From: Sipunculus nudus
Taxonomy: Eukaryota > Annelida > Sipuncula > Golfingiida > Sipunculidae
Direction of reading: 5' to 3'
Length of the DNA stretch: 64,000 nt
Assembly: GCA_026874595.1 (NCBI GenBank)
Contig: CM049315.1
Coordinates: 1,926,501 to 1,990,500 of the forward strand
Below are positions 17,523 through 54,244 of the stretch, piece by piece. Both the position numbers and the translations under genes were made by a program. Under the pieces are notes generated by a model that saw only the letters and a list, made by a program, of their open reading frames with translations, made no database searches and was not told where the DNA came from. Each line of letters opens with the position of its first letter. Positions within the stretch are counted from its first letter, which is position 1.

Positions 17523-20500
17523 AAGAATATTTATTTATTAATATATGTAAATTATATATTTGATTTCAAATTTTATTTATATATATATACACAGACACAC
17601 ATGCATATATATACAAACTGTATATATATATACATATTATATATACACTGTATGTTTTTGTGAATATGTATGTGTATTTATAATATTTTAAGAATATTCA
17701 TTTATTTAAATATGTAAATTATATAGTCTATTTCAAATTTTATTTCTACACACACACGCCATCACAAACACATCAACACATATATAAAGTAGTTCAAGGG
17801 TTGCTTGGCTATATTTGACTATTTAAGGCTTTTTTGCTTTGCATTCCCAGTGAACTGTTTGATACCAGTGCCACATGACCCTGAAAGTCTTTGTCCTATT
17901 GGATGAACCACATGATCAGCCCTTGCGATTGTCGTTATACTGCTTACAATGATAATTGTAAGAAAAAAATTTGACATGTCAAACTTTTTATGTCTGCCGA
18001 TTATCTGTTGAGACAAGTGATTATCACTGAAAAATGCTGTTTACACTACAGGAAAATCACAAAGAAATGCTGAAAATTGTGAGTGACAAGCGATTGTTGT
18101 GTAGTGTAACCCTGGCTTGTGTAATGGAAGGGTTTCTTTGTATGTTTTTACCTGGCTTGTGGACCTGAGGAGTTGACGCTATCACTGGACCCGATGTTGG
18201 TCTGAGGAAGCTGGATGAAGGCACGGAGTGAGTGATTGGCACATCGGGTGGGGATTTAGGAGGGTATGAGTGAGCTGAATATAAACTTGTATTGTTTTCC
18301 TGCAACAAAACATAACAGGTATATAATGAAGATAATACTGCTGTGGTAATCAGGTCAGACTGTAACAATACAATCAATATCCAATCAAACTATACATATC
18401 AACATACTTTACAAACAATACATTATATGATACCATACATGTAATTATTATCAAGAGTTCAGATATGATCATGTGGAATAATTATACCTCACAGTACTGG
18501 AAGTTCTGTTGGTGTCTATTTGTCATGTGTTAAAGGTCAATGTTAATACAATTTGCTGTTTATGTCTGCATTTTATATATGGTATTGAGATCCTTGATTG
18601 GTTACGCCTTCATATTGCTAATAAACAGTTACACAAAAGCATGATAAAAAAGGTTCATATTTGTTTTATTAAATGACTATGCACAATATCAACGTTATAA
18701 ATGGTGTCTATTCCTTACCTCAATATAACTTGGAAAAAATGTTTTAAATGTAATACACATGGAATGTCCCATGGCACCCAGGGATGTCACTTGCCAATGT
18801 CATTTTCAGGTGATATATTATGACATCACAGGGCAAAATAAGCCACACAGTTTGACTGTCAAAAACATTAATTTTCAAAGATATTCCAGGGCTCATTGTC
18901 CTGAATTCCGGTGGACTGATACAGGCATGAGGCAGACTCATATAACCTGTTGTGACATTTAGCTATACAGATTAACTGCTCAGCACAGTCATTGAGTAAG
19001 AAAATGAGTCACTTCATTCATGTTTCACTTTCACTCATTAACAAAGACTACTTACTTGTGGATGAGATGAGCTTGCAGTCACATGATTTGGTACTGAATG
19101 CTGAGTGGTTGGACTGTTACCTCCACTGCTTTGCATAGATTTCTTTCTGTTGACTAAAAAAATTAAAGGCAAGAAATACCAAACCTTCATCTACAACAAT
19201 CATAAACAACCAGCACGTTTACTCTTTTATTAAAAAACTTTCTAATATTTCATGCAAAGTGCAAATATTGACATAATATGCATATATAAACAAGGGACCC
19301 ATTGGTCACATCGCTCAGCTGAATTTTGGAAAATATTAGTAATTGCAAAATATTTTTAATTCTTTTAGTTTTTCATGTATATTATCATTAGAAAAGCTAT
19401 GAGAAAATGGCCCTGTAAATTAAAACTTTGTAAATTATAGAATAATGGACATGAGCTAAACCATTTAGTGATGCACCAAGGGAACAAATAGGCCTATGGT
19501 AAGTGTTATATAAAAGTAACATTTCATAAACAAATAATGTGTGAAGGTAATTAAGTTTTCAAAAGTTAAATATATGGCCATATGAGTTAAAAATTAATCC
19601 CACAAAGTTTGACCAATATTCCTAATTTTAATACTAAGTTAACAGTGTCATTTACACCTAGGCCCCACCAACTTTAAGAGAGATGAATGAAATGCTACAA
19701 AGTATTTATATCTTTTTAAATCTTGTCAGTTAGCACTTACATTAGATCCTAAAATTTTATCACATTTAAATATTAGGATTAAATTTCTAAAATTTTTTTC
19801 TTTAAAAAAATCAAAATTGTCAAACTCTCATAAAAAAGAATTTATTTAACATTAAAATTATAAGATTCATCTTGTTTTTTAGTCCTGTCTATTGAAGGGG
19901 TGGGTGGGGGGAGGGGTCTCCGTTGTTACTGCTTGTTGCTGAAAAAATGTTAATTTTAAGATTCATCTAGTTCATAGTACAGGTCTGTCAACTGAATGGG
20001 GTGGGGGGGGGGGGGGGTGCCAGAGAAAAAGGCTCCCTGTGGTATGGTATTAACTGCAGACAGCCTGATCAAGCTCAACTCAGTGGAGAGAGGGCTTGCC
20101 TTAGTGATGGGATTGCATAACATTATGCCAACCCCCTGGGGAGCATAGAGAGCTGCACTGAATGACCTACAGTCACCAAAGTGGACTGCTTGACAATGTA
20201 AGGGAATACAACAAGAGCCTCCAAAAAAAATTCAATAACTAGCCTAATTTTGCAGCTTTTATTTTCAAATTTCAGATTTTAACAGATTAAATCCTTATGT
20301 GTACATGCTGTGAAAATTTTATCCACAGTACTTACATGAAAAAAACGTGCCGTGGCCAAAGTTAGGCAAAATTTAAGGTACCAATTTTATATTTTTGCCA
20401 ATATTTAAAAAAAATGAACAGATTTTGATCTAATTTTTGGTAAACAATTAAATTTTTGTTTAATTAAAGTTGTATTACTGTAAAAAAGTCCCTGCCTTTA

Positions 20501-23500
20501 ACACTTTTGGTCCTAAGTGACCAAATATCTTTCCTGATATGTTTTCCATTATGTTTTGGCCCATAACTTTTTTAAATTAAATAATAATGACTTAATTTCT
20601 GGCATGTACATAGGAACTATATAAAGGAATATTTATGGTAAATATGAAGAAAACCAGATGAGTGGTTTTGATATTAGGCAGTCCTGAAGTGTGAAAATAG
20701 ATTTCTAATAAAAAATTGAGGTTTTTCCTTAATATCTCGAAGAAACAAAGTCCTATTGACCCAATTTTTGGCATGGTAGGAGATTTTGGGGACATCTAAC
20801 TGTATGCCAAATTTCAGATTCGTAGGTCCAATAGTGTGCAAACGTGCCAGTCTTACGGACGGACATCCGGACGGACGGATGGACAGATGGAAGGACGACG
20901 GTTGACGGACAATGGACCATGACTATAGCTCAGATGACTTATAGTCAGCTGAGCTAAAAACAAGGCCTACAGACCTAATGTAAACCTGTGCAAAGTTTGG
21001 GAGTATGAAAGTTTATTTTTAAAATTTAATACTGATCCTCTCATGTCCTGCATATCTACCTCAGTCATTATTATTTCAGCCAAATGGACATTTTGGACCT
21101 GCACTTTTCGGACTAGGATATTTTAAGACTAGGATATATCAGTCAGGATATTTCGGATATGTTCTTTTTGCCAGGGAGGGATATTGGGACAGATGATTGG
21201 ATAATTTGGCAGCATGGTTTCGTAGAAGAACATTTTAAAATGGTTTTTTTTAGCTTATTCCCTATAAAATCTAAGAACAAGTTCCTCTTTTAGCCTTGGT
21301 ATTGAGTCACACCTACTCATGCATCCTGGCAATGGAGGCTCAGCTTTCCCCCAGGTCAAGGGTACCTAATGTGCCACATGTAACCGCACCACTGGCTCTT
21401 ACAGACTGAAACTTACCACTGGCTCTTACAGACTGAAACTAACCACTGGTCTTACAGACTGAAACTTGACCTGTTGGCAAATCTGATACAGATGGCAGGT
21501 TCTAAATGTGTAGATGGTGTGTCTAGACACATTGCCTAGACATCTAGACTGTATCTGAACACCAGGCAGAGTCAGGTCAATTGCCATGGTGATGTCTGGA
21601 CTGCACCTAGGTGCACTGATTTACCTCTTGACTTGACATGTTGAAACTTGCCATGCTGCCAAATCTGTTTTCAAACACTGAAAGCATTTTTCAATTGGCT
21701 ACACTGATTTTTTAAAGCTGCATTTACCCAATCTATTCTTATAAAACTGACAGAAAAATACCATAGAACAATTCATTTAAGTTTAAACCAATCAGCTTTA
21801 CAGTTTCTTAAAAAAACATGTATAAGCTAAAAGAATCTAAACTTACATTTTTGCTTGTAAAAAAGAGATCAATATAGGTGGCGCCACCAACACCTCAATT
21901 TCAGATATGACTCATGACAAACATTAGCATAAAATTTGGTGATGACAGCTCCAGCTATTTCTGAGATTTTAAGTTTAGTATGCTTTTTTGCACAGATGAC
22001 TAACTTAAAACTCCTGTAACTCAACCAAAACTCACTGAACTGGAGCCATTCAAACAAATTTGTGAGAGATTGTTCTAGGGACCATTTCTGTGAAAAATTG
22101 GACAATTTGGCTGGACAGTTTCAGAGAAGAAGATTTTTATATCTTTTTTTACTTTTCCTGTATAAAATCTAAGAAAATCACTGAATCAAAACCATCTGGA
22201 CAAATTTGAATTATCAACATTTAAGAATCTTTCATGTGTGAGATTAAAGAATTTGACTCAGTGGTTTTTTGAGAAGAAGATCTTTGTAGCCACTGAGCAG
22301 AAATGGGCTGCTATGACATTTGACTATATTCAGCTTCCCATAACTCGGCCAAAAGTCACTGAACAGAGACCATTTGAACAAACTTAAGAAAGCACTACCC
22401 TAGGAGCATTTCTGTGCAATATTGAACATTTTGGCTTTATGCTTTCAGAGTAGAAGTTTTTTGTAGCCCTTTGTATGCTTTGGGCACCGTTGACCCCCGT
22501 ACAAAAAGACCAATGCAGGTGGCACCACCAATACCTCAATTTCAGATATGAAGTGACCAACATTAACATAAAATTTGATGATGGTAGCTCCAGCCGTTTC
22601 TGAGATTGTAATTTTAGCATGCAAATGACTAAGTTCAACTTCCTGTAACCAGGTCAAAATCACCGAACTGGAACTATTCGAACAAACTTGAGAGAGATTG
22701 TTCCAGGGAAAATTTCTGTGAAATATTAGACAATTTGGCTGGACAGTTTCAGAAAAGAAGATTTCTAAAGGTTTTTAAGCTTTTTCTCTTTAAAATCTAA
22801 TTTATGCAGATACCCAAAAATAAGCTCTAGGGTACCAAGTTTCATATGTGACTAATTCTTGTATGTAATTTGGAGCTGCTAGCTCTGACGGTTTCTGACT
22901 TACAGCCATGGATGGCGGACGGCAAGCCATGGACGGCTGACGTCGGACAGACAATGCCGCGCCATCACATAAGCTCAAAGATTCGCTGAAAAACAAAATA
23001 TCACTTCCAACCTAATCAGACACTGAAAATTTTTAAAAATCTTATATTCATGGAAATATTTTTCAGAAATTGTGTACGATGGACCATATATCAATGTACA
23101 TCCAGACATACATCTGAAGCACCAACATGTCTCCCATTGCTGTAACTTAGTCCCCTATATTTGAGTTTCAGTGCACATCAAAGTACAACCAGTTTAGTTT
23201 AATTCTTAAGTCTAAAGTCTAAAGGTAAAAGTCTAAGTCCATTCTCTTCAAGTTTTTTTGAATTTTAGAAAATGGAGTTCAAGTCCCAGTCCATTTAAAA
23301 CTAGTGGCCCATGGGCCATGACGCTCAGCTAATATTGATTTGGTGCTCATGTTTTTATGCCCCCGCCACAAAGTGGCCGGGGCATATAGTTTTACCCATG
23401 TCCGTCATTCCGTCCTTCCGTCATTCCGAAATCAAACAGTTGTTTGGACTTTTTTTCGCAATGCCTGCAGATATTGGCCTGATTTTTGGTGTGTGGGCAG

Positions 23501-26500
23501 ATATAGACCAGTTACAGATCAAGTTCACGTTTCGTCCTGGTTGACCTACTTTTGACCGTTTTACGGCTCCTTAACTTAGAAAATTTCATGAAAAATAGAA
23601 ATTTCATGACAAATACACATGTACGGACTTTTTTTCGCAATGCCTGCAGATATTGGCCTGATTTTTGGTGTGTAGGCAGATAATGACCAGTTACAGATCG
23701 AGTTCACATTTCTTCCCAGTTGTCCTACTTTTGACTGTTTTACGGCTCCTAAACTTAGAAAATTTCATGAAAAATAGAAATTTTCATGACAAATACACAT
23801 GTACGGACTTTTTTTCGCAATGCCTGCAGATATTGGCTTGATTTTTGGTGTGTGGGCAGATATAGACCAGTTACAGATCGAGTTCGTGTTTCGTCCCGGT
23901 TGACCTTCTTTTGACCGTTTTACAGCTCCTGAACATAGAAAATTTCATGAAAAATATGAAATTTCATGACAAATACACATGTACGGACTTTTTTTCGCAA
24001 TGCCTGCAGATATTGGCCTGATTTTTGGTGTGTTGGCAGATATTGACCAGTTACAGATCGAGTTCGCGTTTTATCCCAGTTGACTTACTTTTGACCATTT
24101 GACGGTGCTCTAACATAGAAAATTTCATAAAAAAGTGCACATGCATAGACTTTTTTTCGCAGTGCCTGCAGATACAGGCCTGATTTTTGGTGTGTAGGCA
24201 GATATTGACCAGTTACAGATCGAGTTCTTGTTTTGTCCCAGTTGACCTACTTTTGACCATTTGACTGCTCCTGTACATAGAAAGTTTCATGAAAAATAGA
24301 AATTTTCATAACAAATGCATATGTACTGACTTTTTTTCCTCAATGCCTGCAGATACCCCCCTGATTTTTTATGTGTGGCCAGATAATGACAGTTACAGAT
24401 CAAGTTCGCGTTTTGTCCCGGTTGACCTACTTTTCATTGTTTTACGGCTCCTAAACTTAGAAAATTTCATGAAAGACGGAAATTTTTATGGAAAATACAC
24501 ATGTATGGACTTTTTTTCACAATGCCTGCATATACTGGCATGATTTTTGGTGTGTTGCTTGATAATGACTCGTTACAGATCGAGTTTGCATTTTGCCCTT
24601 GTTGACCTACTTTTGACCATACGACACCTCCTGAACTTAAAAAATTTTTCAAAATTTTACAAATGTTTCTAATTTGCCCCAGGCGGGGGCATTCGTGTCG
24701 TTCCGACACATCTAGTTTATTAATGTTATATACTGTCTGTGAGAATAGCCTATGGCTAAAGTTAGTGTTGAAAAATGGACAGATAATTAAAATTTCAGGA
24801 TTCATAGGAGACCTGCCAAGGACCCCCCCATGATTTCACAATAGAGGGTTCCAAGGAAAATAGATACAATTTGTACCCTGTCTGTCTGGGTGCTCAAAAT
24901 CGTGTTTCTGGTCCATAGCTAGCAGAATATACTGTGGTTGCCTTTATATTGGCGGGGCTTAATTTTCGCGGTTTTTATATTTTTAAAACTTTCACGGGGT
25001 TCCTTTTTCGCGCTCTATCATTGGTTTAGTAGTATATTTCATTATCAAAAATAGTTTCATTTACTGGTGATTTCACTGTTATCTGGGTCTCCTATTTCTC
25101 TGTCCGGATATCGCATGTTCGAACATTCACAGACAGCTGAGCCGACGCCTGCGGGAAGCATTGACCCCGCTGGCTGTAATTAGTTCAGGACCGAGGCTCA
25201 TTAAAAACAACTCAAATGATATTAAGGTGTGTAGAGAAACCAACCTGTAACTAAAAAACGGTATATTAAGTTTGTTTAGGGAAACTGTCTTGATAAGGGT
25301 ATCTTACTCCTGTTAATTAAAAGTCGAGTCGTAATCACCTGCTCAACCAACAAGGGACGCCTGTAGGTAGCCCCCTTGTTTCAGTATCAAAGGCAGGGAT
25401 GTGCCCAGAATAATTTGAATGCCGTTTATATATGTTGCTAATTACTTCCATACAGGTGGAAGAAGGAACCGTATTCAGTTTCTCACAGTTAAAATCTGAA
25501 GCAAAACATAATATTCCACTGTTTTAAGGCACTTTGGCCCCAAAATGAACTGCGACCTTTCAAATATATTCAAAACTCACGTCATCATTAGCCAATCATA
25601 CATCGTTTGGCGCGTCATGATTTCACAGAATTAGTCTTTTATACAATTACAAGGTGGCGCAACCCTAGCGGCTATGTTCACTACTTTAGTGGCAAATTTT
25701 ATTCATTAACATGACTAAATACGGCACAATGTGAACGAGTACCTTCTACTCAATATTCATTTTTAAGGGGCACTGGATGTCATCTAACTTGGCACACATA
25801 CACGTAATTTTTAAATATTACTGCCCAGCGGGCATTGACACTTTCCAGTCATGTGCCGGGGGGAAGGAATAACTGCCAGGCGCATCCGCCAGAGTTAGCA
25901 CGCACCTGCAAAGGGTCCCGGTTTTCTACATCAAAGCCAACCGATATTATTTAAAATGGGCCCAGCATTCTCCCTGAATCATTTATCGTATATGCACCAA
26001 GCTCGATGGACAATCACTACGTAGCTGAAGATGAATATCAACTGTCCCAAACTATCGGCAGCTTCTGAAATTAATGATTATTGTCTGGTATATGTGCATT
26101 CAAAACTGCGCGGTTTCATTTTCGCGGTCAGGGAGTGACTGCGAATATCGGAATTTGAAACCACCGCAAATAAGAAGACAACCACAGTAGGTCACCATCA
26201 TTTAATTTCAGGTTTCCAAGGAGAATTGCCAAGGATTACCCTGAATGTCATGTTAGAAGAGTCTAGGGCTAATGGATACAATTTGTGCCTTGTCTGTCTG
26301 GGTGCACAAAACCATTTTCAGCCTATAGATCACACAATATAGGTCACCATGACCTAAGTTCAGGTTTCCAAGGACACTTGACTAGGACCTCCCTGAATTT
26401 TATGTTAAAAGATTCTAGGCCTCATGGATACAATTTGTGCCCTGTCTGACTGTCTGGGTGCTTATATGACATCTTTTCTTATAGGTTGCAAAATATAGGT

Positions 26501-35500: not shown

Positions 35501-38500
35501 CTCAAGTTATCTAATGCAACAAAGGCTCTGACTAGCCAAAATTTTCAGAGTCATTGTTCAATTCTTAGTCCACAGTCAAGACTAAACCTGTAACAGATTA
35601 CTGCACATATATTCTTAATGTTATTAATAAACAAGGGACCTGTGGGTCACAGCACTCAGCTGAAATTGATTCTGAGAATACTGGCATAAAATCCCAGTGA
35701 ATGTGTTGACTGTGCACTTTTATGGGTTAAATGAAAGATGTAGAAGCCTCATGATCACATAATTGTTAGAGTTTCAGTATTTCTACTGAGGGACTGAAAT
35801 TTGCATGAAAATGTACCAAGGGGGCACTTATGAAACACTGTAAATTATAGGATGATGGACATGAGCCAAAGTATAATAATAATCAATTTATTGACTGAAA
35901 TATAATGCTGTTAAAAAATTCAAATGGGCATTATATAACTAAATTTGATAAACATGTTAAAACAAGCCAATTAGGTATAAAAAGCATTTGCACTGTGTAA
36001 TGAAAGAAACTTGTGGCCTGAAACCATTTAATTATGCAATACGCAAACAAGGCCTACAGGCCTAATGTGAACCTGTGCAATGAGATTACACCAGGTATAC
36101 AGCATTACTCTTCAAGAACATGTGTAATATGTATATGAACAATGCAAGTACTAAACACTTAGAACAAGAAACAATTAAACAAACATCACTGCTGAAATTC
36201 TGGCATGGGTGCACATAACACAAAAACTAGAATACGGGCAGTCAACAAGCGACAACGTGTATCCGCCAAAATCAGAGTGAGACGGGTGAAGTGAGGCATC
36301 GAATGAGTGGCAAGGGGAAATAGAGTGAGGTGTGTTGCATAATAGCCTTGACGTCTGCAGTCAAAATGTGTATGTAGGTTGTGCCACCTACCACAAAATC
36401 CAGAAAGCTGTCCAAGATGTATAAACATGCAAAATTTTAGGCAAATAAGTCAAACCACTACTATTTTAGCCCATAACAGACAAACAGACAGATGTTGTGC
36501 AAAAATGGTGGCAGGTGACACCACTAATTTTGTGTATGATTAAGAGCTATGTGAGATCTATACACATGCAAAATTTCAGGGGGATATGTCAAACCAGTCT
36601 TGATATATAAGCCTGAATGTCTGCAGCGTATACATAATGTAGGTGGCACCACCTGCCAAAAAAATTTAGAAAGCTATCAAAGATGTATAAACATGCAAAA
36701 TTTTACGCAGATAAGACAAACCACTACTGAGATATGAGTTATTTTAGCCCAAGGCAGATGAACAAATGGACGCTGTGCAAAAATGGTGGCAGGCAGCGCC
36801 ACCAGTTTAATGTATGATAAAGATCTATGTGAGATCTATACACATGCAAAATTTTGGCCCTACTGGTCAAAGGGTTCCCTAGATATGAGCTTGGATGTCT
36901 GCAGCTTAAACCTGAATGTAGGTGGCGCCACCTGTCATAAAATCAAGAAAGTTGTCCTGGATGTATACACATGCAAAATTTCAGGTGGATAAGTCCAACC
37001 AATGCAGAGATATGAATGTTTTTATTCCAAGGTAGATGAACAGATGGACGCTGTGCAAAAATTGGTTGCAGGTGGCACCACCATTTTTAGTGTATGTTAT
37101 AAAGCTATCCAAGGGCTACATTTGTGCAAAATATTTAGCCTGATTGGTCAAACGGTTACTGAGATGTGGGTTTATGTGTGAAAACAGATGCACAAATGGA
37201 CGCTGGGCAGAGAGGAAAGGTCAGAGGTCAACCAAAAATGAGGGCGCAGCAGTTAACATTGGACCCGATCATAATTCAGAATTTAAAAAAATTCTGCCCA
37301 GTGGTTACGGAGGAGTTCTCCAAAAACCTATGCGACGGTGGTGGCGTCGGCGTCTGACTGAAAACATAGTATCCACAAAACTGTTTTGGCGGATACAATG
37401 ATTGTAGCTGGCACCACCAGTCTTGTATACAACAAAGAGATATATACCTATGCCCAATGTCAGACTGATATGTCAAACCCCTCCTGTGAAATTAGCAGGG
37501 ACATACACTGTGCAAAAATATTGTAGGTGGCGCCACCAGTCTTGTACACTGTAAAGCTACCTGATATTTATAAACATGCCCAATTTTAGGCTGATGTATC
37601 AAATTCCTCTGTAGAAATAAACAGGCGCATACACTGCAAAAGTCAATGTAGGTGGCACCACCTGTCTTGTAAATGAGAATACCGTCAAAGACACATAGAC
37701 AGGTCAAAATATCAGGCCAATACATCAAATTTCCCCAGAGTTTGATACACTGGACTGACAAGGCTTAGGTGAGTAATGCAGTTGCGCCTGAGTGAACTGT
37801 AACAAATTGCTGCCTCAAGCTACTGCACTGAGTGAACTCTTGACTTGCACCTTGCTAGAATGAGTGAACTTCTGACCTGTACCTGGCTGCACTGGGTGAA
37901 CTCTTGACCTGTTGCATAATCTGACACAGTTGGCAGTCTGCCAAAGCTATAAATAGATCCAGGCTGAACTTTGGTACTAAATCGAATGCAGTGAGTAGTC
38001 TGCCAGAGCTATAAATAGAATGCAGCTACTGCCCTGAGTGAACTGGCTGTACTTCTTCCAACCCTGGCACTGTGCCAAACCTATTTATAGAGCTGATATC
38101 ATCTTGGCAAACGGCCAACATCAGGGCACTGGCAATCTGCCAATGGTAAACCAAGTGCTGCCATCTGTACACAAAAGTGGTCCCTACTTGAAATAACTTT
38201 GAAATTAATTTTCCCAATACGAAATGCTTTTCAGCTGACTTTTTATAAAACAAGTTTTTTCAAACAGTTGAAAGATATTGTTCTAGTAGTTCTAATCTGG
38301 GAATTCAGCATCTAGATGATGTGTCTAGATGATTGTCTAGACGTCTAGACGCTACGTCTAGATGGCTAGACACATTTTCCAGACACCAAACAGAGCATGT
38401 CTGGACCCCATCTGGTTGCACTGAGTGACCTCTTGACTTGGCTGCTGAAACTCAGCATGTTGTCAAATCTGTTTTCAAACACAGAAAGCCTTTTTCAATT

Positions 38501-39987
38501 GGCTACACTGCTTTTATAAAGCTGCATTTACCCAATCTATTCTTATAAAACTGGCAGAACCCTATCATAGAATAATCCTCGTAAAGTTTAAACCAATCAG
38601 CTTGACAGTGTCATCATATAACAGTGTATAAGCTAGAAGAGTTTAAAATTACATTTTTGCTTGTAAAAATCAGATTAATGTAGCTAACGCCACCAATATC
38701 TCAATTTAAGATATGACTTATGTGACAAACATTGTCATAAATTTGGTGATGATAGCTTCTGCCGTTTCTGAGATTGAAATTTTAATATGCTTTTTTGAAC
38801 AGAAGACTAAGTTCAACATCTTGTAACTCCGCCAAAAATCACTAAACTGGAACCATTCAAACAAAATTGAAAGAGATTGTTCTAGGAATCATTTCTGTGA
38901 AATATTGGACAATTTGACTAGACAGTTTCAGAGAAGCAGATTTTTAAAGGTTTTTAAGCTTTTTTCCTATAAAATCTAAGTAAATGCAGATAGCAAAAAA
39001 ATAAACAAATTCCGATATAGTTTTTTAGATGACTGATTTTTGCATAAAGTTTGGTGATGCTAGCTCCTGCCGTTTTTAAGTTAGTACAGACTACAGACGC
39101 CGCACGACACACAAGGCCACACCATTGCATAAGCTCACAGGTTCACTAAAAATTTTAGAAAATTTTTTATCAAATTTCATGTATACAATAAAAACTAAGT
39201 TCAATATAGTTGAAAAGGCTCTCTTTCTTAAAAATTATCATGTTAAGTGAGTATATATATTCCCTGATTTTTTACATAGTGCATTATGTTGCAGCCCATA
39301 TATTTATTATTACTTCAAAGATTTACGCATTTTTTACCTAATTTCTGGCATGTCCATAAAAGATATAATCCAGGAAAAGTAATTTTTTAAACATGATAGG
39401 TATATCAGAGGCTGCTAGGAGTGCTGCTTCTGGCTTATCCCACTTTATGCACAAAACCTGTGACCGTCGAGCAGCAGTGGACCCTTGAGGGCATGCATTT
39501 TCAACCACAACATGTTAATGAGGGAAATTCCCTCATTTGTGCATACTGAATGGAAACTTTATTTTATACTCAGTTTTGCAAACTTTACATTATTCATGCA
39601 TAATACTTATGAGGTAGATCAGAAATTATCATTTTATAAAAGAAAATATAATATTAGCATATTATGCGACTGCATGGCGTATATTAAATAATATATTATT
39701 ATTATAAAAAAATGGATAGTCATTTTTTTATTTTTGATGGAAACACTGTGTGATGATCTCCTTCAAATATTGTGTCAATTGTTTGTTCATAATCTAGGTC
39801 AATTATATAGGCTAATAAACAAGAAGTCAACATTGACTTTTATAAAAAAAAAATTTAATCACAAAAAATAAATGGCTAAAATAATGGTAATGCTGAATCC
39901 ACTTTGAGCATACCTAATCCAATAGAGACATCGTTGAAGACCACAGTAAAGATGTTCCTGACTGCAGCGCCCCCTTCAGGATTCATA
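13338..39987 (-). CDS. STXBP4: STXBP4-like PDZ scaffold gene (partial, 9 exons; gene span)
   Basis: Nine exons (39987-39914, 35484-35389, 34725-34659, 30126-30052, 29591-29494, 19153-19056, 18299-18152, 14160-13943, 13437-13338) have AG acceptors and GT donors, and every junction phase matches, giving one stop-free frame of about 325 residues. Residues ~13-105 form a PDZ domain: [60 protein letters not shown] Ser/Thr/Pro-rich linker follows, then [20 protein letters not shown] and [13 protein letters not shown]. That last segment and the N-terminal PDZ match my recollection of vertebrate STXBP4 (Synip), a syntaxin-4-binding regulator of SNARE assembly and GLUT4 traffic. Its coiled coil and C-terminal WW domain would lie downstream, outside the window. 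Introns reach ~10 kb and are full of mobile elements. A different PDZ scaffold is possible. Orthology needs a search. Confidence 0.75.
13776..13806. repeat. (TA)n microsatellite
   Basis: Short TA-rich run with a C interruption, in an intron of the STXBP4-like gene. Confidence 0.8.
13943..14160 (-). CDS. STXBP4: STXBP4-like exon: linker 4 and start of conserved helix
   Basis: 218 nt, the largest exon, acceptor atttgtag, donor gtgaga. Begins [20 protein letters not shown] and ends [16 protein letters not shown]. The linker is Thr/Ser-rich; the last 15 residues begin the STXBP4-type segment. Confidence 0.87.
17014..18124. mobile_element. TIR element (~1.1 kb) with 5-6 bp target duplication
   Basis: The left end at 17020-17045 (core ggttacactacacaacaatc) is matched in reverse complement at 18091-18118. 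Flanking GTGTA(A) occurs at 17014-17019 and 18119-18124. The interior repeats subterminal tttacact motifs and holds long (TA)n tracts at 17434-17521 and 17577-17660. No transposase, so a MITE-like element. Superfamily uncertain. Confidence 0.75.
17434..17521. repeat. (TA)n microsatellite
   Basis: Two long AT/TA runs separated by a short unique stretch, inside the 17014-18124 element. Confidence 0.9.
18152..18299 (-). CDS. STXBP4: STXBP4-like exon: linker 3 (Pro/Ser-rich)
   Basis: 148 nt, acceptor gttgcag, donor gtaaaa. Encodes [20 protein letters not shown] and a further 29 residues ending TPQVHKP. It starts only 34 bp from the inner edge of the 17014-18124 element, which lies in the next intron. 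Confidence 0.82.
19056..19153 (-). CDS. STXBP4: STXBP4-like exon: linker 2
   Basis: 98 nt, acceptor ttttttag, donor gtaagt. Encodes [20 protein letters not shown] then [12 protein letters not shown]. Low complexity and basic at the start, probably disordered. RKKSMQ resembles a basophilic kinase site. Confidence 0.82.
19289..20960 (+). mobile_element. Helentron-like non-autonomous element, family F1 (copy b)
   Basis: 5' end caagggacccattggtcac followed by gctcagctga. 3' end: GGACGGAC-type tract (20856-20910) and the hairpin tagctcagatgac/gtcagctgagcta ending at 20960. The 5' motif gctcagctga is the reverse complement of tcagctgagc at the 3' end. The 3' ~850 bp is shared with the copies ending at 44669 and 54244. 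No replication protein or helicase is encoded. Contains poly-G tracts near 19900 and 20003. Confidence 0.7.
20961..22992 (+). mobile_element. Helentron-like non-autonomous element, family F2 (copy a)
   Basis: Starts directly against the end of F1 with caaggcctacagacctaat, then taaacctgtgcaa. Ends at about 22992 with cataagctcaaagattcgctg. Internal ~600-bp blocks starting near 21870 and 22490 repeat (ggtggcgccacc or ggtggcaccacc, cctcaatttcagatatga). Both termini are more diverged than in the copy at 36046-39150. Confidence 0.6.
23355..24716 (+). mobile_element. Helentron/HINE element, family F3, ending CTAG
   Basis: The 5' end forms a hairpin (atgcccccgccac ... gtggccggggcat, 23357-23385). 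Near the 3' end lies ggcgggggcat (24682-24692), the inverse of the 5' atgcccccgcc, then a hairpin gtgtcg ttc cgacac and CTAG at 24712-24715. Subterminal inverse repeat, 3' hairpin and CTAG are the recognised signature of Helentron-associated elements. The core is seven copies of a ~176-bp unit (gactttttttcgcaatgcctg near 23449, 23623, 23800, 23976, 24148, 24329, 24508). Confidence 0.82.
23445..24660 (+). repeat. ~176-bp tandem array within F3
   Basis: Seven diverged units containing cctgatttttggtgtgt and ccagttacagatc. Tandem cores of this size are common in HINE-type elements. Confidence 0.88.
24797..27660 (+). repeat. ~160-bp diverged tandem array, interrupted by a nested element
   Basis: Units contain taggtcaccatgacctaatt, tcaggtttcc, gatacaatttgtgccctgtc and tgactgtctgggtgct. 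The first unit (24797-24931) is separated from the rest by the TA-flanked element at 24932-26187. Short ORFs here follow the unit. Confidence 0.85.
24930..26189. mobile_element. TA-flanked MITE nested in the 160-bp array
   Basis: Ends are ctgtggttg (24932) and caaccacag (26187), with longer imperfect inverted similarity inward (ggcggggcttaattttcgcgg versus the complement of cgcggtttcattttcgcgg). TA at 24930-24931 and 26188-26189. Removing it and one TA restores the array sequence (agaata TA ggtcaccat, compare cacaaaatataggtcaccat), so the insertion is directly demonstrated. It has no coding sequence and is probably of Tc1/mariner type. Confidence 0.85.
27817..29216. mobile_element. TA-flanked TIR element (~1.4 kb)
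   Basis: The left end ccgtaaaatctccacttat (27819) is matched in reverse complement by the right end ataaa-like gtggagatttacgg (29201-29214), followed by tgcggttt on both sides inward. TA lies at 27817-27818 and 29215-29216. There is no transposase ORF. Several short ORFs inside (28302-28910) are not protein-like. Confidence 0.8.
29494..29591 (-). CDS. STXBP4: STXBP4-like exon: linker 1
   Basis: 98 nt, acceptor tcttgtag, donor gtgagt. Encodes [20 protein letters not shown] followed by a Ser-rich run. Its phases fit both neighbours. The next intron (19154-29493) is about 10.3 kb. Confidence 0.85.
30052..30126 (-). CDS. STXBP4: STXBP4-like exon: PDZ end
   Basis: 75 nt, acceptor gttttag, donor gtatat. 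Encodes [19 protein letters not shown] then RDALS, the last PDZ helix (AVALLR) and final strand (YIELQVAR). Confidence 0.88.
30127..34658 (-). other. STXBP4-like intron inside the PDZ domain
   Basis: About 4.5 kb, of which 3.5 kb is the 49-bp minisatellite. The rest is AT-rich with no exon signal. Confidence 0.8.
30521..34079 (+). repeat. 49-bp minisatellite, ~72 copies
   Basis: Unit gttgtctgtttatatccaca then tgttgagttttgataaagtg then ttggggtgg, 49 bp (for example 33554 to 33603). Units differ at a few positions (ggggtgg or agggtgg; cacatg, cacgtg, cacctg; ttgag or ctgag). The first and last units are degenerate. A block of about 19 units is duplicated with a 932-bp offset. ORFs such as 31455-31661 and 32387-32593 are only readthrough of the repeat: three unit frames translate in turn because 49 is not a multiple of 3. 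Confidence 0.97.
34659..34725 (-). CDS. STXBP4: STXBP4-like exon: PDZ middle 2
   Basis: 67 nt, acceptor cttttag, donor gtaggt. Encodes [18 protein letters not shown] then TND, the most conserved PDZ stretch (GDQLLSVNG). The 49-bp minisatellite begins about 580 bp into the intron after this exon. Confidence 0.88.
34928..35030. repeat. AT-rich simple repeat
   Basis: (AAT/ATT)n-like low-complexity tract in an intron. The overlapping poly-Ile ORF is an artefact. Confidence 0.9.
35389..35484 (-). CDS. STXBP4: STXBP4-like exon: PDZ middle 1
   Basis: 96 nt, acceptor atcacag, donor gtgtgt. Encodes [19 protein letters not shown] and [12 protein letters not shown]. It has an unusual acidic run, EEEE, in the loop between the first two PDZ strands. 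Confidence 0.85.
35631..36045 (+). mobile_element. F1 5'-end fragment
   Basis: Starts aacaagggacctgtgggtc then gcactcagctga, the F1 5' terminus. No F1 3' hairpin follows; an F2 element begins ~415 bp later. Confidence 0.6.
36046..39150 (+). mobile_element. Helentron-like element, family F2 (copy b)
   Basis: 5' end aacaaggcctacaggcct (a stem aggcc-taca-ggcct) followed by gtgaacctgtg at 36067-36077. The exact reverse complement cacaggttcac lies at 39136-39146, just before the 3' end. The core is tandem ~300-bp units with ggtggcgccacc, acacatgcaaaatt and gcaaaaatggtggcagg. A stretch at 38300-38390 is dense in gtctaga motifs, also seen near 21515-21550 in copy a. No autonomous coding capacity. 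Confidence 0.72.
39914..39987 (-). CDS. STXBP4: STXBP4-like exon: N-terminus and PDZ start
   Basis: 74 nt, acceptor tttcag, donor gtatgc. Encodes [18 protein letters not shown] then DVSIGL, the first PDZ strand and carboxylate-binding loop (GLGVKI across the junction). The ATG at 39986-39984 is a good start by comparison with the short N-terminus of vertebrate STXBP4, in which case upstream exons would be 5' UTR. Confidence 0.8.
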
Positions 39988-40992: not shown

Positions 40993-43900
40993 AACAAGGG
41001 ACCCATGGGTCATAACGCTCAGCTGATCGTGATTGGACTATAAATGTTTCTCCACTGTGATACTATATCGAGTCGATAAAGCTTATGAATATCATGGACG
41101 TGTTGGGCTATTATAAAGGAATGTAATGTAATATGTGAGTAAATGATAAATGAAATAACCTGACTGATGGATTGATAGAGTCAAATATAGTGGTTTATTT
41201 TTTATTTAATTAGGAGGGGTTGAAAATTGTGATATATTTGAGCAAATATGAATGCAATGACAGCAGTAATAAGCAGTAGTAGAATGATGATAAGGCTATT
41301 TGTTGAGAAACTAAAATGTATGGTAGTCTGCAAGCTTTCAATTTGACAGATATGATGTTATGATTAACTATGCTGATGAAGTGATTTATGAATTTGTGAC
41401 TGAATGACAATATCTCTTTAGTCTTGACAAGGTACATTATTGTGATGCCCACTATGTCTACATATAACACAATATTGACATTATTTCTGGCATGAACATA
41501 GGTACCTATGAACGAATAGTTATACAAAATATTAATGTATGAATATATCTGATTCATCTTGTTCTTGCTTACTGAGGCTGACTTTGGGATGGGGTTCGGA
41601 GAAGGGAAAAGTGAGGGCAGCACGAAGGTGGATGTAGAAATATTCTATTGTAATGTTTTTCATTTATATAAGAATATGAAACGCTAAGAGGAAAGGGGCC
41701 CTCCTACTTGGTTATAGTAAAGTTCTAAATATATGATTGCAAACTAATACTCTGACAAGACTGTCATGAAGAAAAACAGTAAATGCAAGCTTTCAATTTG
41801 ACAGATATGATGTTATGATTAACTATGCTGATGAAGTGATTTATGAATTTGTGACTGTATGACACAATATCTCTTTAGTCTTGACAAGGTACATTATTGT
41901 GATGCCCACTATGTCTACATATTACACAATATTGACATAATTTCTGGCATATACATAGGTACCTATGGATGAATAGTTATACAAAATATTAAAGTATGAA
42001 TATATATGATTCATCTTGTTCTTGCTTACTGAGGCTGACTTTGGGATGGGTTCGGAGAAGGGAAAAGTGAGGGCAGCATGAAGTGGATGTAGAAATATTC
42101 TATTGTAATGTTTTTCATTTATATAAGAATATGAAAAGCTAAGAGGAAAGGGGCCCTCCTACTTGGTTATAGTAAAGTTCTAAATATATGATTGCAAACT
42201 AATACTCTGACAAGACTGTCATGAAGAAAAACAGTAAAAGTTTTGAGATACTGTAATGCATATGAAAATTTACAGATGGACAGGCAAGTGGACAGAATGG
42301 ACTAATACCTTTATTTCACTTTCAAGGGAATAATGCATTTCAGTTTATATATAAGCCTATTTTTTTAAGCATATCCACTTTTTTTATTAAGAAGTTTTTA
42401 CCTGAATCATTTTTTTTATTTACAGGTTTTATAAATTTTTAATTAAAAAACCTGAAAATATAAGTTAAAATATTAGAATTGTTGCAAAAGTTGCAATCAT
42501 ATATACAGAGTAAAAAACTGAAACTGTAAGTTAAAATATTAGAATTGTTGCAAAAGTTGCAATCATCATATATTCAGAGTGTAGCTCATATTGGGTCATA
42601 TTATGCATACACATATATTTTATTATTTTAAATCATAAATGTTTAAACTGATTTTATAAGAAAATAATGCCACAACATGGCATCTACAAGAATATTCCTT
42701 GAATCACTATTAAAAAGTTTTGCACATTGGAGTTTTCAGTACATGCTTAATTTTATTCACCAAAATAAAATAAAAGAATCAGTAAATTTGATAAAATAAA
42801 ACATCTTTTCAAATAAAGTATACACACTGTTGGTTGAATGAGGGACAAACAATATCATTGTGCTTATTACTATCCCAGTTTTAATTTATTACTGGAATTA
42901 ATAGTCACTTTCACACCTGGTTTTTACTCCTCTGAAGTAAGAAATTACTTATCTCATGAACATCCACACTTTCATAGCAATACACCACTTTGTGGACACA
43001 ATTAAATGTACACTTTAATCATTGTAACCCTGGTGGTACAATACAAAATCTAAAATGTAGCATAGCCTGGAATAAGAATGAATCAAATACAGAAAATAAT
43101 AACATTCATCTAGTTTATGCACCATCTGGGGGGGGGGGTGCGCAGGGCAGAGGGGAAGCCTGCTGGTAGTGGCCAAGCTGACCCAAGGCAAGCTGCCTGG
43201 GGTGGGTTACATAATGCAAGTGGAGGCTGTACTACTAGCTGGGCTAGATGTAAACAACACTTGACATGGTGTATGAAAACATGAATAAAAGCTATTCTTT
43301 CCAATCAATTTCTTTGAAATTTCAGATTTTAAAAGATAAAATCCTTATGTATATATGCTGTGAAAATTAAATCAACAGTGCCAAAGTTGGACAAAATTTA
43401 AGGTATTGATTTTTTATTTATGCTAATAACTTGAAAAATTTTCAAAATTCAGATCTAATTTTGGGTAAACAATTGAATCTTGATTAAATAAAGTTATATT
43501 CCTGAAAAAAAGTCTCTAGGTTCAGCAATTCTCATGTTAGGTGAGTAAATATATTTCCTGATTTGTTTAAAAATTGCATTATGTTTTGGCCCATAACTTC
43601 AAAATAATACCCAATACTGACCTAATTTTTGGTAAGTTCAAAGAAAATGTATGAAAGAATGTGAATACTATATACGATCAAAAACAGATCAGTGGTTTTG
43701 ATATTAGGCAGCCTTGAAGTGTAACAATGGCTTTTTTTATGGAAAATTGAGTTTTTTCCTTAATATCTCGAAGGAACGAAGTCCTAATGACCCAATTTTC
43801 GGTATGGTAGGAGATTTTGGGGACATCTAAAATTATGCCAACAGCCTGGGGAGCATAGAGATGTGCACTGAATGACCTACAGTCATCGAAGTGGACTGCT

Positions 43901-44669
43901 TGACAATGTAAGGGAATACAACAAGAGCCTCCAAAAAAATTCAATAACTAGCCTAATTTTGCAGCTCTCATTTTCAAATTTCAGATTTGAACAGATTAAA
44001 TCCTTATGTATACATGCTGTGAAAATTAAATCCACAGTACTTACAGGAAAAAAATGTGCCGTGGCCAAAGTTGGGCAAAATTTAAGGTACCAATTTTATA
44101 TTTTTGCCAATATTTAAAAAAATTTAACAGATTTTGATCTAATTTTTGGTATACAATTAAATTTTGATTAATTAAAGTTGTATTACTGGAAAAAAGTCCC
44201 TACCTTTAACACTTTTGGTCTTAAGTGACCAAATATCTTCCTGATTTTTTTACAAAGTCCATTATGTTTGGGCCATAACTTTTTTAAATTATATAATACT
44301 GACTTAATATCTGGCATGTACATAGGAACTATATAGAGGAACATTTATGGTAAATATGAAGAAAACGAGATGAGTGGTTTACATATTAGGCAGTCCTGAA
44401 GTGTGAAAATAGATTTCTAATAAAAAATTGAGTTTTTTCCTTAATATCTCGAAGGAACAAAGTCCTATTGACCCAATTTTCGGCATGGTAGGAGATTTTG
44501 GGACATCTAACTGTATGCCGAATTTCAGATTCGTGGGTCCAAGGGCGTCGAAACCTGCCAGTCTTACGGACGGACATCCAGACGGACAGACGGACGGACG
44601 GACAGCCAGACGGACGACGGACAATGGACCACGACTATAGCTCAGATGACTTATAGTCAGCTGAGCTAA
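40993..44669 (+). mobile_element. Helentron-like element, family F1 (copy c, 3.7 kb)
   Basis: 5' aacaagggacccatgggtc, a perfect 12-bp palindrome gacccatgggtc, then gctcagctga. 3' GGACGGAC-type tract (44566-44625) and terminal hairpin ending at 44669. It matches copy d (50987-54244) almost throughout. It carries an internal 455-bp tandem duplication that copy d lacks. ORFs at 41210, 43110, 43678 and 44379 on the minus strand recur in copy d as spurious frames. Confidence 0.78.
41330..42238 (+). repeat. 455-bp internal tandem duplication in F1 copy c
   Basis: gcaagctttcaatttgacag begins at 41330 and again at 41785, and both copies run to gaaaaacagtaaa. Copy d has one such unit (from about 51325). 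Confidence 0.88.
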
Positions 44670-45126: not shown

Positions 45127-46400
45127 AACAAGGAACCAGTGGGTCACGGTGCTCAGCTGAAATTGATTATTACAATATTTTCATAACAAAGCCTACAAGC
45201 CTAATGCTGACTTGTTCAATGGCATAAACACCAGGAATGCTGGGCCATTACTTTTAAAGTACATGTGTATTATGTACATGAACAATGCAAATATGAAACA
45301 TTTCGAACAAGAACTAATTACACAAACATCACTGCTGTAATACTGGGATGGGTGCACACAACAGAAAAATGACTGTAGGTGGCACCACCATATGACAAAG
45401 CTATCGGATTGTATAAATATGCACATTTTCAAGCAGATAAATCAAAATCCCTCCAGAGAAATAAGCAGGCACATACACTTTGCAAAATTCATTGCAGGTG
45501 GCAACACTTGTCTTGTGAATCAATAAACCATCAAAGATGCATGGAGAGGTCAAAATATCAGGCCAATACATCAAACTTCTCTTGAATTATGTGCACTGGG
45601 CTAATCAGGTTAAGGTAAGAAAGGCAGTTGCCCTGAGTGAACCAGAACAAATTGCTAGCTCCAGGTACTGCACTGAGTGAACACTTGATCTGTACCTGGG
45701 TGCACTGAGTGTACTCTTGACCTGTTGCATAATAGGACACAATTTGCAGTCTGCCAAATCTATAAACAGATCCAGACTGACCTTTGGCTTGTTGCCAAAT
45801 CTGAAATAGTTGACATTCTACCAGGCTATTTATAGATACAGACTCAATCTTGGCCTGTAGGTAAATCTGTTCACACATACTGAAAGACTAAGGCTACAAA
45901 GCCTTTTTTCAAGTTGACATATCCATAAGATTTTTTTATCAAAATTGTTAGATTAATAAAGATGTAGTCCTTTAATTGTTAAAGGTCCAAGAATACTGCC
46001 AACAATCATTTAAGTAAACTCAAACAAAGGCCTCCTAATAATCAGTTTTGTGCAATGTTACAGAAACTGAATGAACAGTTTTGCAGAAGGAGACCACTGC
46101 AGTCCTCAGTTTGAAATAGGTTTACTAATGGCAGCAAGACCAACTTACGCTTTCTATGACTCTTCCAAAAGAAAACAATCCCAATCTTTTCTTAGACAAC
46201 TGAAAGCATCCTACCCTAGGATAGTACTTGTGAGAAACTAAACAATTCAGCTTGACAGTTTCATCATAAAACATTTTTAAACTGTAAGAGGCTAAAATTA
46301 TGAGGTTTTTGTCCGTTAAAAACAGGTCAATGTTGGTGGCACCACAAAAACTGCAATTTCAAATATGAGCCATGTGACAAATATTTGCAACATATTGCAC
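45127..46400 (+). mobile_element. F1 5' end followed by diverged F2 (copy c)
   Basis: F1-like start caaggaaccagtgggtcac and gctcagctga at 45129-45165, then within ~60 bp an F2-like start aacaaagcctacaagccta at 45186. F2-type units (ggtggcaccacc, acatacact, gccaatacatcaaa) continue to about 46400. No clear F2 3' end was found. Confidence 0.55.
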
Positions 46401-49266: not shown

Positions 49267-49311
<45 letters not shown>

Positions 49312-50751: not shown

Positions 50752-50824
<73 letters not shown>

Positions 50825-50980: not shown

Positions 50981-50986
50981 GGTAAT

Positions 50987-53900
50987 AACAAGGGACCCAT
51001 GGGTCACGGCGCTCAGCTGATCGCGATTGGACCATAAATGTTTCTCCACTGTGATACTATATCGAGTCGATAAAGCTTATGAATATCATGGACATGTTGG
51101 GCTATTATAAAGGAATGTAATGTAATATGTGAGTAAATGATAAATGAAATAACCTGACTGATGGATTAATAGAGTCATATATAGTGGTTTATTTTTTATT
51201 TATTAAAGAGGTGTAGAAAATTGTGATATATTTGAGCAAATATGAATGCAATGACAGCAGTAATAAGCAGTAGTAGAATGATGATAAGGCTATTTGTTGA
51301 AGGATCTAAAGTGTATGGTAGTCTGCAAGCTTTGAATTTGACAGATATGATGTTATGATTAACTATGCTGATGAAGTGATTTATGAATTTGTGACTGTAT
51401 GACACAATATCTCTTTAGTCTTGACAAGGTACATTATTGTGATGCCCACTATGTCTACATATTACACAATATTGACATAATTTCTGGCATGTACATAGGT
51501 ACCTATGGACGAATAGTTATACAAAATATTAAAGTATGAATATATATGATTCATCTTGTTCTTGCTTACTGAGGCTGACTTTGGGATGGGTTCGGAGAAG
51601 GGAAAAGTGAGGGCAGCATGAAGTGGATGTAGAAATATTCTATTGTAATGTTTTTCATTTATATAAGAATATGAAAAGCTAAGAGGAAAGGGGCCCTCCT
51701 ACTTGGTTATAGTAAAGTTCTAAATATATGATTGCAAACTAATACTCTGACAAGACTGTCATGAAGAAAAACAGTAAAAGTTTTGAGATACTGTTATGTA
51801 TGAAAATTTACAGATGGAAAATTTACGGATGAACAGGCAAGTGGACAGAATAGACTAATACCTTTATTTCACTTTCAAGGGAATAATGCATTTAAGTTTA
51901 TATATAAGCCTATTTTTTTTAAGCATATCCACTTTTTCCATTAAGAAGTTTTTATCTGAATCATTTTTTTTATTTACAGGTTTTATAAATTTTAAATGAA
52001 AAAACCTAAAAATATAAGTTAAAATATTAAAATTGTTGCATAGGTTGCAATCATTATATATACAGAGTAAAAAACTGAAACTATAAGTTAAAATATTAGA
52101 ATTGTTGCAAAAGTTGCAATCATCATATATCCAGAGTGTAGCTCATATTGGGTCATATTATGCATACACATATATTTTATTATTTTTAAATCATAAATGT
52201 TTAAACTGAATTTAAAAGAAAATAATGCCACAACATGGCATCTACAAGAATATTCCTTGAATCACTATTAAAAAGTTTTGCACATTGGAGTTTTCAGTAC
52301 CTGCTTAATTTTATTCACCAAAATAAAATAAAAGATTCAGTAAATTTGATAAAATAAAACATCTTTTCAAATAAAGTATACACACTGTTGGTTGAATGAG
52401 AAACAAACAATATCATTGTGCTAATTACTATCCAAGTTTTAATTAATTACTGAAATTAATAGTCAATTTCACACCTGGTGAAGTTTTTACTCCTCTGAAG
52501 TAAGGAATTACTTATCTCATGAACATCCACACTTTCATAGCAATACACCACTTTGTGGACACAATTAAATGTACACTTTAATCATTGTAACCCTGGTGGT
52601 ACAATAAAAAATCTAAAATGTAGCATAGCCTAGAATAGGAATGAATCACATACAGAAAATAATAACATTCATCTAGTTTATGCACCATCTGGGGGGGGGG
52701 GGAGGGAGTGCAGAGCAGAGGGGAAGCCTGCTGGTAGTGGCCAAGCTGACCCAAGGCAAGCTGCCTGGGGTGGGTTACATAATGCAAGTGAAGGCTGTAC
52801 TACTAGGTGGGCTAGATGTAAACAACACTTGACATGGTGTATGAAAACATGAATAAAAGCTATTCTTTCCAATCAATTTCTTTGAAATTTCAGATTTTAA
52901 AAGATTAAATCCTTATGTATATATGCTGTGAAAATTAAATCAACAGTGCCAAAGTTGGACAAAATTTAAGGTATTGATTTTTTATTTATGCTAATAACTT
53001 GAAAAATTTGCAAAATTCAGATCTAATTTTGGGTAAACAATTGAATCTTGATTAAATAAAGTTATATTCCTGAAAAAAAGTCAGGTTCAGCAATTCTCAT
53101 GTGAGTAAATATATTTCCTGATTTTTTAACAAATTGCATTATGTTTTGGCCCATAACTTCAAAATAATACCCAATACTAACCTAAGTTTTGGTATGTTCA
53201 TAGAAAATGTATAAAAGAATGTGAATCCTAAATACGATCAAAAACAGATCAGTGGTTTTGATATTAGGCAGCCCTGAAGTGTAACAATGGCTTTTTTTAT
53301 GGAAAACGGAGTTTTTTTTTCCTTATACCTCGAAGTCCTGAACAAAGTCCTAATGACCCAATTTTCGGTATGGTAGGAGATTTTGGGGACATCTAAAATT
53401 ATGTCAACAGCCTGGGGAGCATAGAGATGTGCACTGAATGACCTACAGTCATCAAAGTGGACTGCTTGACAATGTAAGGGAATACAACAAGAGCCTCCAA
53501 AAAAATTCAATAACTAGCCTAATTTTGCAGCTTTTATTTTCAAATTTCAGATTTTAACAGATTAAATCCTTATGTATACATGGTGTGAAAATTAAATCCA
53601 CAGTACTTACAGGAAAAAAACGTGCCATGGCCAAAGTTGGGCAAAATTTAAGGTACCAATTTTATATTTTTGCCAATATTTAAAAAAATTTAACAAATTT
53701 TGATCTAATTTTTGGTATACAATTAAATTTTGATTAATATAAGTTGTATTACAGGAAAAAAGTCCCTACCTTTAACACTTTTGGTCTTAAGTGACCAAAT
53801 ATCTTCCTGATTTTTTTACAAAGTCCATTATGTTTGGGGCCATAACTTTTTTAAATTATATAATTCTGACTTAATATCTGGCATGTACATAGGAACTATA

Positions 53901-54244
53901 TAGAGGAATATTTATGGTAAATATGAAGAAAACCAGATGAGTGGTTTTGATTTTAGGCAGTCCTGAAGTGTGAAAATAGATTTTTAATAAAAAATTGAGG
54001 TTTTTCCTTAATATCTCAGGGGAACAAAGTCCTATTGACCCAATTTTTGGCATGGTAGGAGATTATGGGGACATCTAACTGGATGCCGAAATTCAGATTC
54101 GTAGGTCCAACGGTGTCGAAACGTGCCAGTCTTACGGACGGACATCCAGACGGACCGACGGACGGACGGACAGACAGACGGACGGACGACGGACAATGGA
54201 CCATGACTATAGCTCAGATGACTTATAGTCAGCTGAGCTAAAAA
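50987..54244 (+). mobile_element. Helentron-like element, family F1 (copy d, 3.25 kb)
   Basis: Same termini as copy c (aacaagggacccatgggtc at the left, terminal hairpin and gctaaaa at 54240) and nearly the same sequence throughout, without the 455-bp duplication. Inserted beside AT-rich DNA. The 3' GGACGGAC-type tract spans 54136-54195. Confidence 0.78.

Follow-up and report, generated by a model that had tools for sequence, protein, structure and literature searches.

Three repeat families with unrelated sequences and similarly built ends occur in a stretch of 64,000 nucleotides of Sipunculus nudus DNA (contig CM049315.1, positions 1,926,501 to 1,990,500; the whole stretch is hereafter called the window). 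Which kind of mobile element they represent, and what determines the strand on which each copy lies, are the questions raised by this locus. The window corresponds to C10:1926501-1990500 within an assembly that totals 1.43 Gb over 153 contigs. A first, sequence-only reading had designated the families F1, F2, and F3 and had assigned to them a common terminal architecture of the Helentron type, with a 5' palindrome and a subterminal motif found again in inverted orientation near the 3' end. All its motifs were found in place, far above chance as judged from shuffled sequences and genome-wide pattern counts. F1 is represented by GACCCATGGGTC (positions 41000 and 50994), GCTCAGCTGA (19313, 41017, 45151, and 51011), and TCAGCTGAGC (2297, 20945, 44657, and 54229), F2 by GTGAACCTGTG (36067) and CACAGGTTCAC (39136), and F3 by ATGCCCCCGCC (23357) and GGCGGGGGCAT (24682). 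The 34-nt end of F1 had four matches at three mismatches or fewer in the window versus none in 100 dinucleotide shuffles.

When the copies were read side by side, the true orientation of F1 and F2 proved to be the minus strand of the window and that of F3 the plus strand. The first reading had therefore reversed F1 and F2: the A-rich 5' ends that it described are T-flanked 3' ends, and its 5' palindromes are 3' hairpins. The palindrome of F3 is indeed 5', but those of F1 and F2 match the 3' hairpin of F3, TGTCGTTCCGACA, and not its 5' hairpin, ATGCCCCC..GGGGCAT, the equivalent of which in F1 is TAGCTCAGCTGA..TCATCTGAGCTA. Once turned, the families share a layout tighter than the one initially described, consisting of a T, the 5' subterminal repeat, the core, the 3' subterminal repeat, 3 to 5 nt, a hairpin, and a T. 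The segment comprising the 3' repeat and everything beyond it up to the terminus is 33 nt long in F1, 31 nt in F2, and 34 nt in F3. With a slash marking the boundary of the element, F1 reads T/TAGCTCAGCTGA-CTATAAG-TCATCTGAGCTA, a microsatellite of the CCGT type, repeats and unique parts, and TCAGCTGAGC-GCCGT-GACCCATGGGTC-CCTTGT/T. F2 reads T/TAGTGAACCTGTG..CACAGGTTCAC-ATT-AGGCCTGTAGGCCT-TGT/T. On the plus strand, F3 reads T/ATGCCCCCGCCACAAAGTGGCCGGGGCAT, a microsatellite of the GTCC type, 180-bp repeats, and GGCGGGGGCAT-TCG-TGTCGTTCCGACA-CATCTAG/T. The 5' subterminal repeat is offset by two nt in F1 and F2 (the 5' end of F2 being seen in few copies) and lies directly behind the T-run in F3. 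In each family the 3' hairpin is located outside the 3' repeat (GACCCATGGGTC in F1, AGGCCTGTAGGCCT in F2, and TGTCGttccGACA in F3).

The boundaries were assessed on genomic copies, the 40 best-scored copies of each family being drawn from 3,815 (F3), 2,897 (F2), and 1,262 (F1) first-look candidates. Unrelated flanks fixed the boundaries. The base following the F1 end was a T in 30 of 30 loci, that of the window included, the loci ending in GACCCATGGGTCCCTTGT/T; similarity broke off after CCCTTGT and the flanks beyond were unrelated in all 30. For F2, assessed on the 3' side, a T followed the end in 29 of 30 loci, again including that of the window. All eight F3 loci, among them the copy in the window, had both ends and displayed TTTTT/ATGCCCCC and CATCTAG/TT. 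Over the first 10 bases of the 3' flanks the T-skew was 0.37 for F1 and 0.31 for F2, and it ranged from -0.02 to 0.07 farther out. The 5' end of F1, TAGCTCAGCTGACTATAAGTCATCTGAGCTATAG, was detected at zero or one mismatch, together with the CCGT-type microsatellite, in 14 of 20 fetched regions and was missing from the other six. Across the insertion, the 17 paired F1 flanks (these 14 and three copies from the window) had in common only Ts, one to five in number, and displayed no target duplication. One locus (L077) contained an exact head-to-tail junction between two F1 elements, CCCTTGT/TAGCTC, as expected of rolling-circle products.

Paralogous empty sites, with 74 to 93% identity, were obtained for four of seven F3 copies (L002, L003, L006, and L008) and three of 17 F1 copies (L046, L055, and L056). 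A site was counted if the alignment of the joined flanks crossed the junction, had no gap longer than two bases there, and showed neither duplication nor loss; the leading Ts of the right flank were stripped beforehand, so that these sites do not report on the number of Ts. Junction-crossing matches that were weak, of low complexity, or to element ends (L007, L040, L045, L048, L052, and copy A of the window) were left uncounted, and no junction-crossing match was found, in the sequences searched, for the other 11 copies tried. Insertion between two Ts without target duplication, which the first reading had anticipated, is supported by the Ts beside the ends in the three families, the paired F1 flanks, and the empty sites of some F1 and F3 copies. 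The inverted repeats near both ends could suggest cut-and-paste elements resembling miniature inverted-repeat transposable elements (MITEs) rather than rolling-circle elements, an origin that we regard as highly improbable since the 17 paired F1 flanks carry no target duplication beyond the Ts, the ends are asymmetric, and empty sites are found. In our view the flanks and the empty sites refute this alternative for F1 and F3; for F2 the argument comes from the like layout. A canonical Helitron, with 5' TC, 3' CTRR, and insertion between A and T, was also rejected, T/T insertion being found in all three families and CTAG in F3 only.

Searches of the whole genome with terminus patterns containing few open letters, at zero mismatch, returned at least 9,927 matches for F1 (4,927 and at least 5,000 by strand), 4,892 for F2 (2,493 and 2,399), and 1,816 for F3 (878 and 938), at least 16,635 in total. 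The reversed patterns of the three families had no match in the genome. Among the 1,262 F1 candidates, the 40 with the best scores were 99 to 100% identical, a selection from which no age follows for the copies of contig C1 discussed below. The Helitron Rep domain (PF14214) had 143 matches in the genome, of which seven lay in frames 2,229 to 2,426 codons long; the same search was positive in none of 14 control genomes. Elements with such long frames are located at C11:50385293, C4:36174940, C8:80139053, and C13:66180677. Exact ends, a common geometry, Ts beside the ends, the lack of target duplication in F1, the empty sites of some F1 and F3 copies, thousands of copies, and Rep-domain genes in the genome together make it very probable that F1, F2, and F3 represent three HINE families, i.e. 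short non-autonomous Helentrons, inserting at T/T. This supports the class proposed by the sequence-only reading. HINEs would borrow a Rep/helicase protein, one transposon strand being joined into the T/T target. Two observations tell against this assignment. No internal inverted copy of the 5' repeat of F2 was visible by eye. As for the autonomous partners that the first reading had suggested seeking, the Rep-domain genes exist in the genome but none was tied to F1, F2, or F3 ends, the 3.7 kb obtained beside one long frame stopping short of its ends.

The strands of the copies were mapped on contig C1, using the first 100 places listed for each family among the genome matches enumerated above. 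These places, to which all the C1 results below refer, extend to 7.5 Mb for F1, 14.7 Mb for F2, and 49.3 Mb for F3. Copies were not randomly oriented. F1 strands formed 16 runs versus 42.2 ± 4.1 in shuffled orders, and F2 strands formed 28 runs versus 50.0 ± 4.9; in both cases none of 20,000 shuffles gave a value as low. The agreement extended across families. F2 and the nearest F1 end lay on one strand in 16 of 17 cases within 10 kb, 37 of 39 within 30 kb, 46 of 51 within 100 kb, and 49 of 54 within 300 kb, and neither 99 circular shifts nor 5,000 rotations produced an agreement as good. F3 had the strand of the nearest F1 or F2 end in nine of nine cases within 10 kb and 11 of 13 within 30 kb. 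Pairs of F3 ends were on the same strand in 16 of 17 cases under 50 kb and in 12 of 19 at 50 to 150 kb. More than one F1 subfamily is involved, since F1 neighbors within 200 kb agreed in 59 of 65 cases if their terminal subtypes differed (19 of 24 if they did not), and F1 ends of the A type shared a strand with their closest C-type neighbor in 26 of 30 cases, one of 68 circular shifts being as good. Thus, unrelated families lying near each other share a strand on one stretch of C1, and local chromosomal polarity, rather than the element, appears to set orientation. No report of strand agreement or orientation bias of Helitrons or Helentrons was found in the portions of the open-licence PMC literature available to us.

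The agreement between F1 and F2 varied with distance. Pairs agreed in 81 of 88 cases up to 40 kb (23 of 23 at 10 to 20 kb and 41 of 46 at 20 to 40 kb), 50 of 63 at 40 to 80 kb, and 107 of 135 at 80 to 160 kb, these pairs not being independent as one element enters several. With the first 1.2 Mb of C1 left out (counts given below), agreement mostly fades near 40 kb, which we take as the usual size of an orientation domain. The initial 1.14 Mb of C1 are exceptional in this respect: in C1:64036-1143089, a terminal stretch of about 1.1 Mb, all 47 listed F1 and F2 3' ends and all three listed F3 ends were on the minus strand. In a hand tally of 68 loci, with ends accepted at seven mismatches or fewer, the end of a second element was present in 25, of which 19 were on the same strand and six on the opposite one; the window loci L001 and L009 were included, and L017 and L030 were left out as the second end may be their own.

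Could elements simply have been moved together? Nesting, composite elements, or duplicated segments carrying F1, F2, and F3 would account for ends that lie close together, as do those of F2 and F1 at position 20957 of the window and in loci L013, L016, L022, and L025, and for the F2 loci that share downstream sequence and an F1-type end. This explanation is improbable because agreement at 10 to 20 kb and 20 to 40 kb exceeds the lengths of the elements in the window (1.4 to 3.7 kb) and spans mixed F1 terminal subtypes. Regarding the ends themselves, those of different HINEs touch or are at most about 60 bp apart at four of 30 F2 3' ends (those same four loci) and at 20956-20960 of the window, counts for which no background rate was compared. 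Related sequence was present directly downstream of the F2 3' end in L012, L032, and L036, followed in L012 and L036 by an F1-type 3' end, as though a larger element had carried F2, or F2 had been extended as far as a new terminus.

Several results weigh against local chromosomal polarity as the general determinant of orientation. Without the first 1.2 Mb of C1, F1-F2 pairs agreed in 40 of 47 cases at 0 to 40 kb, 21 of 34 at 40 to 80 kb, 26 of 53 at 80 to 160 kb, 101 of 149 at 160 to 320 kb, and 123 of 218 at 320 to 640 kb. The 44 runs of F3 strands did not differ significantly from the 50.3 ± 4.9 expected, nor was the agreement of F3 with the nearest F1 or F2 end within 100 kb significant (18 of 29, with 471 of 3,000 rotations as good). 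In the window, the single F3 (plus) opposes nine F1 and F2 3' ends (minus). Genome-wide, the 40 best-scored copies per family and 129 merged helicase hits gave cross-family agreement in four of six pairs under 50 kb, four of nine at 50 to 200 kb, and five of 11 at 200 to 500 kb; the nine of 20 obtained at 50 to 500 kb are sparse and provide no genome-wide confirmation. Helicase-helicase pairs were on the same strand in eight of 11 cases under 50 kb, six of 16 at 50 to 200 kb, and 13 of 27 at 200 to 500 kb (19 of 43 for 50 to 500 kb). Neither set, sparse as both are, displays domains of great length. To these results are added the requirement of Helraiser for double-stranded donors in cells, according to the available text of PMC5876387, and the failure of a splice-donor motif to provide a usable map of gene direction, with 13,375 matches versus 12,684 for the reversed control. 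Controls were sought among other repeats. Retroelements detected by a reverse transcriptase motif (257 matches in the genome, two in the stretch mapped for F1) were too rare to serve, and the dispersed repeats from flanks that were examined as candidates either belonged to other HINEs or adjoined HINE ends.

If local polarity does set orientation, we infer that the cause is a process with a direction, either replication or transcription, that leaves one strand exposed. By opening single-stranded target DNA, this process would allow the Rep enzyme to join the element there, and if one target strand alone were exposed, the orientation of the element would follow that strand. In the available text of PMC5876387 and PMC4778049, Rep enzymes of the HUH type act on single strands with a fixed polarity, and the latter source leaves the origin of the single-stranded DNA used by Helitrons open, naming replication of the lagging strand and supercoiling in the wake of transcription. 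In bacteria, IS608 relies on the lagging-strand template, and its orientation mirrors the direction of replication (PMC5371812, in the sections available). By analogy, we tentatively rank first, at somewhat less than an even chance, the possibility that Helentrons insert into one strand of the moving eukaryotic replication fork, on account of the megabase block confined to a single strand.

Transcription, possible though rather doubtful, is ranked second because about 40 kb is also the size of a gene. The insertion machinery would use single strands opened by R-loops or negative supercoiling, and elements would follow the strand of the gene. The usual domain is compatible with gene length, and the accessible part of PMC4778049 reports more Helraiser insertions in expressed genes besides naming negative supercoiling behind transcription as a possible source of single-stranded DNA. 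A splice-donor-like word, AAGGTAAGTTT, had the strand of the nearest F1 or F2 end in 25 of 30 cases within 100 kb. It had 38 matches after an array was collapsed, eight inside F2 copies and the rest unexplained, so that its agreement may come from F2-like sequence or from genes. Other splice-donor hits (31, with arrays collapsed by hand) matched the nearest F1 or F2 strand in 15 of 29 cases, and the 1.1-Mb stretch with all 47 listed F1 and F2 ends on the minus strand would demand many genes on the same strand.

Gene-sized blocks might also result from selection after random insertion, one orientation within genes being removed owing to poly-A or splice signals. We consider this unlikely. Strand agreement of about 90% exceeds, to our knowledge, the known biases of post-insertion selection. 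The same strand would have to be harmful for three unrelated sequences, and the high identity (99 to 100%) of the 40 top-scoring F1 copies among the 1,262 candidates, a selected set, hints at youth. Orientation preference in transcribed regions is nevertheless established for L1, long terminal repeat, and Alu elements (PMC10030826), in keeping with such selection.

In the window, the copies named by the sequence-only reading were all present, but its list was incomplete. A fuzzy scan allowing up to six or seven mismatches for the F1-type and F2-type ends, which had no match in three shuffled windows, detected nine 3' ends on the minus strand, six of the F1 type and three of the F2 type, and one F3 on the plus strand. 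Unless stated otherwise, the following features are on the minus strand. F1 is present at full length as copies C (50988..54240, with its 5' end at 54240 and its 3' end at 50988) and B (40994..44668, with an internal duplication of 455 bp), which are 95 to 96% identical across the parts in common, and as the shorter copy A (19290..20956). An F1-type 5' end (2275-2308) with its microsatellite adjoins a 338-bp tandem-repeat array; both were treated by position as one element, 1..2308, the other end of which lies beyond the window. F1-type 3' ends are also located at 45128..45165, with an F2-like 3' end about 25 to 30 bp further in (45186), at 35631..35658 (four mismatches), and at 23300..23340 (six mismatches), shortly before F3 begins at 23357. 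F2 comprises a full-length copy (36047..39147), a diverged second copy (20960..22987), the 3' end of which is three bases away from the 5' end of copy A of F1, and an F2-like copy (45186..46385) delimited by BLAST similarity to F2, the 5' end of which was not located. The full-length F3 (23357..24715, plus strand) comprises the ATGCCCCCGCC hairpin, the microsatellite, the 180-bp tandem repeats, the 3' subterminal repeat, the hairpin, and CATCTAG.

Other features of the window include, at 7848-12185 on the minus strand, retroelement frames with a reverse transcriptase (PF00078, E = 3.4e-22) and a weak match to Phage_integrase (E = 7e-4, below the cut-off), flanked by direct repeats of 106 bp with 100% identity (7848-7953 and 12080-12185). 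We take this retroelement to be DIRS/Ngaro-like. A Pfam search of 10 of the 15 listed frames of the window gave matches only in two frames of this retroelement, at 8160-10984. A 49-bp repeat (30528-34079; 72.6 copies, 94% matches) coincides with the most pronounced strand skew of any 2-kb step in the window, and two further arrays consist of four copies of 238 bp (5782-6736, 99% matches) and 13.8 copies of 47 bp (58022-58665, 90%). The window contained no Rfam family at the gathering threshold and no tRNA. Three scans of viral contigs for F1 and F3 ends gave no match. Elsewhere, C1:3702183-3754070, in which a motif recurs every 10.2 to 10.4 kb on one strand, is probably a long tandem array.

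The strand agreement, rather than the elements themselves, is what deserves independent repetition, first across all chromosomes. It bears on the question left open in the available text of PMC4778049, namely where a eukaryotic rolling-circle transposase finds single-stranded DNA. Were the agreement to hold genome-wide, this question could be addressed from sequence alone, and the polarity of germline replication or transcription could be read in species lacking such data. If insertion at the replication fork proved true, the strands of thousands of old and fresh copies would constitute a map of the direction of germline replication written in the genome sequence.

As elements, F1, F2, and F3 are ordinary further members of a kind already described (PMC4067079, PMC7492417). 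According to the sections available of PMC4067079, HINE/DINE-1 elements are non-autonomous Helentrons that insert at T/T without target change, with subterminal inverted repeats 2 to 4 nt from the 5' end, a 3' hairpin, variable terminal Ts, and central tandem repeats with a microsatellite, all of which recall the families of the window. The distance of the 3' repeat differs (about 38 to 60 bp in the mite HINE families versus 31 to 34 nt here), perhaps because it was measured otherwise, and is a family-level feature rather than a criterion of the class. Orientation domains are absent from the account given in those sections. In layout, F3 resembles part by part Cg_HINE of Crassostrea gigas, described with the reclassified Pearl element in the accessible portion of PMC7492417: the 11-bp 5' repeat, the complementary inverted repeat, the GTCC-type microsatellite, the 180-bp repeats, the 3' repeat, and the palindrome all have counterparts. 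Once turned, F1 has the same order of parts, whereas F2 differs in having no inverted repeat detectable by eye. Canonical Helitrons and Helraiser, as presented in the parts available of PMC4778049 and PMC5876387, share the 3' hairpin terminator, the absence of target duplication, head-to-tail junctions, and, with F3, the terminal CTAG, but they insert between A and T and begin with TC, in contrast to the T/T insertion without 5' TC observed here. The IS200/IS605 family, exemplified by IS608, is prokaryotic, lacks a helicase, and has unrelated ends; as a working likeness only, insertion orientation tracks a chromosomal polarity in IS608, through the lagging-strand template (PMC5371812, in the sections available), and appears to do so here.

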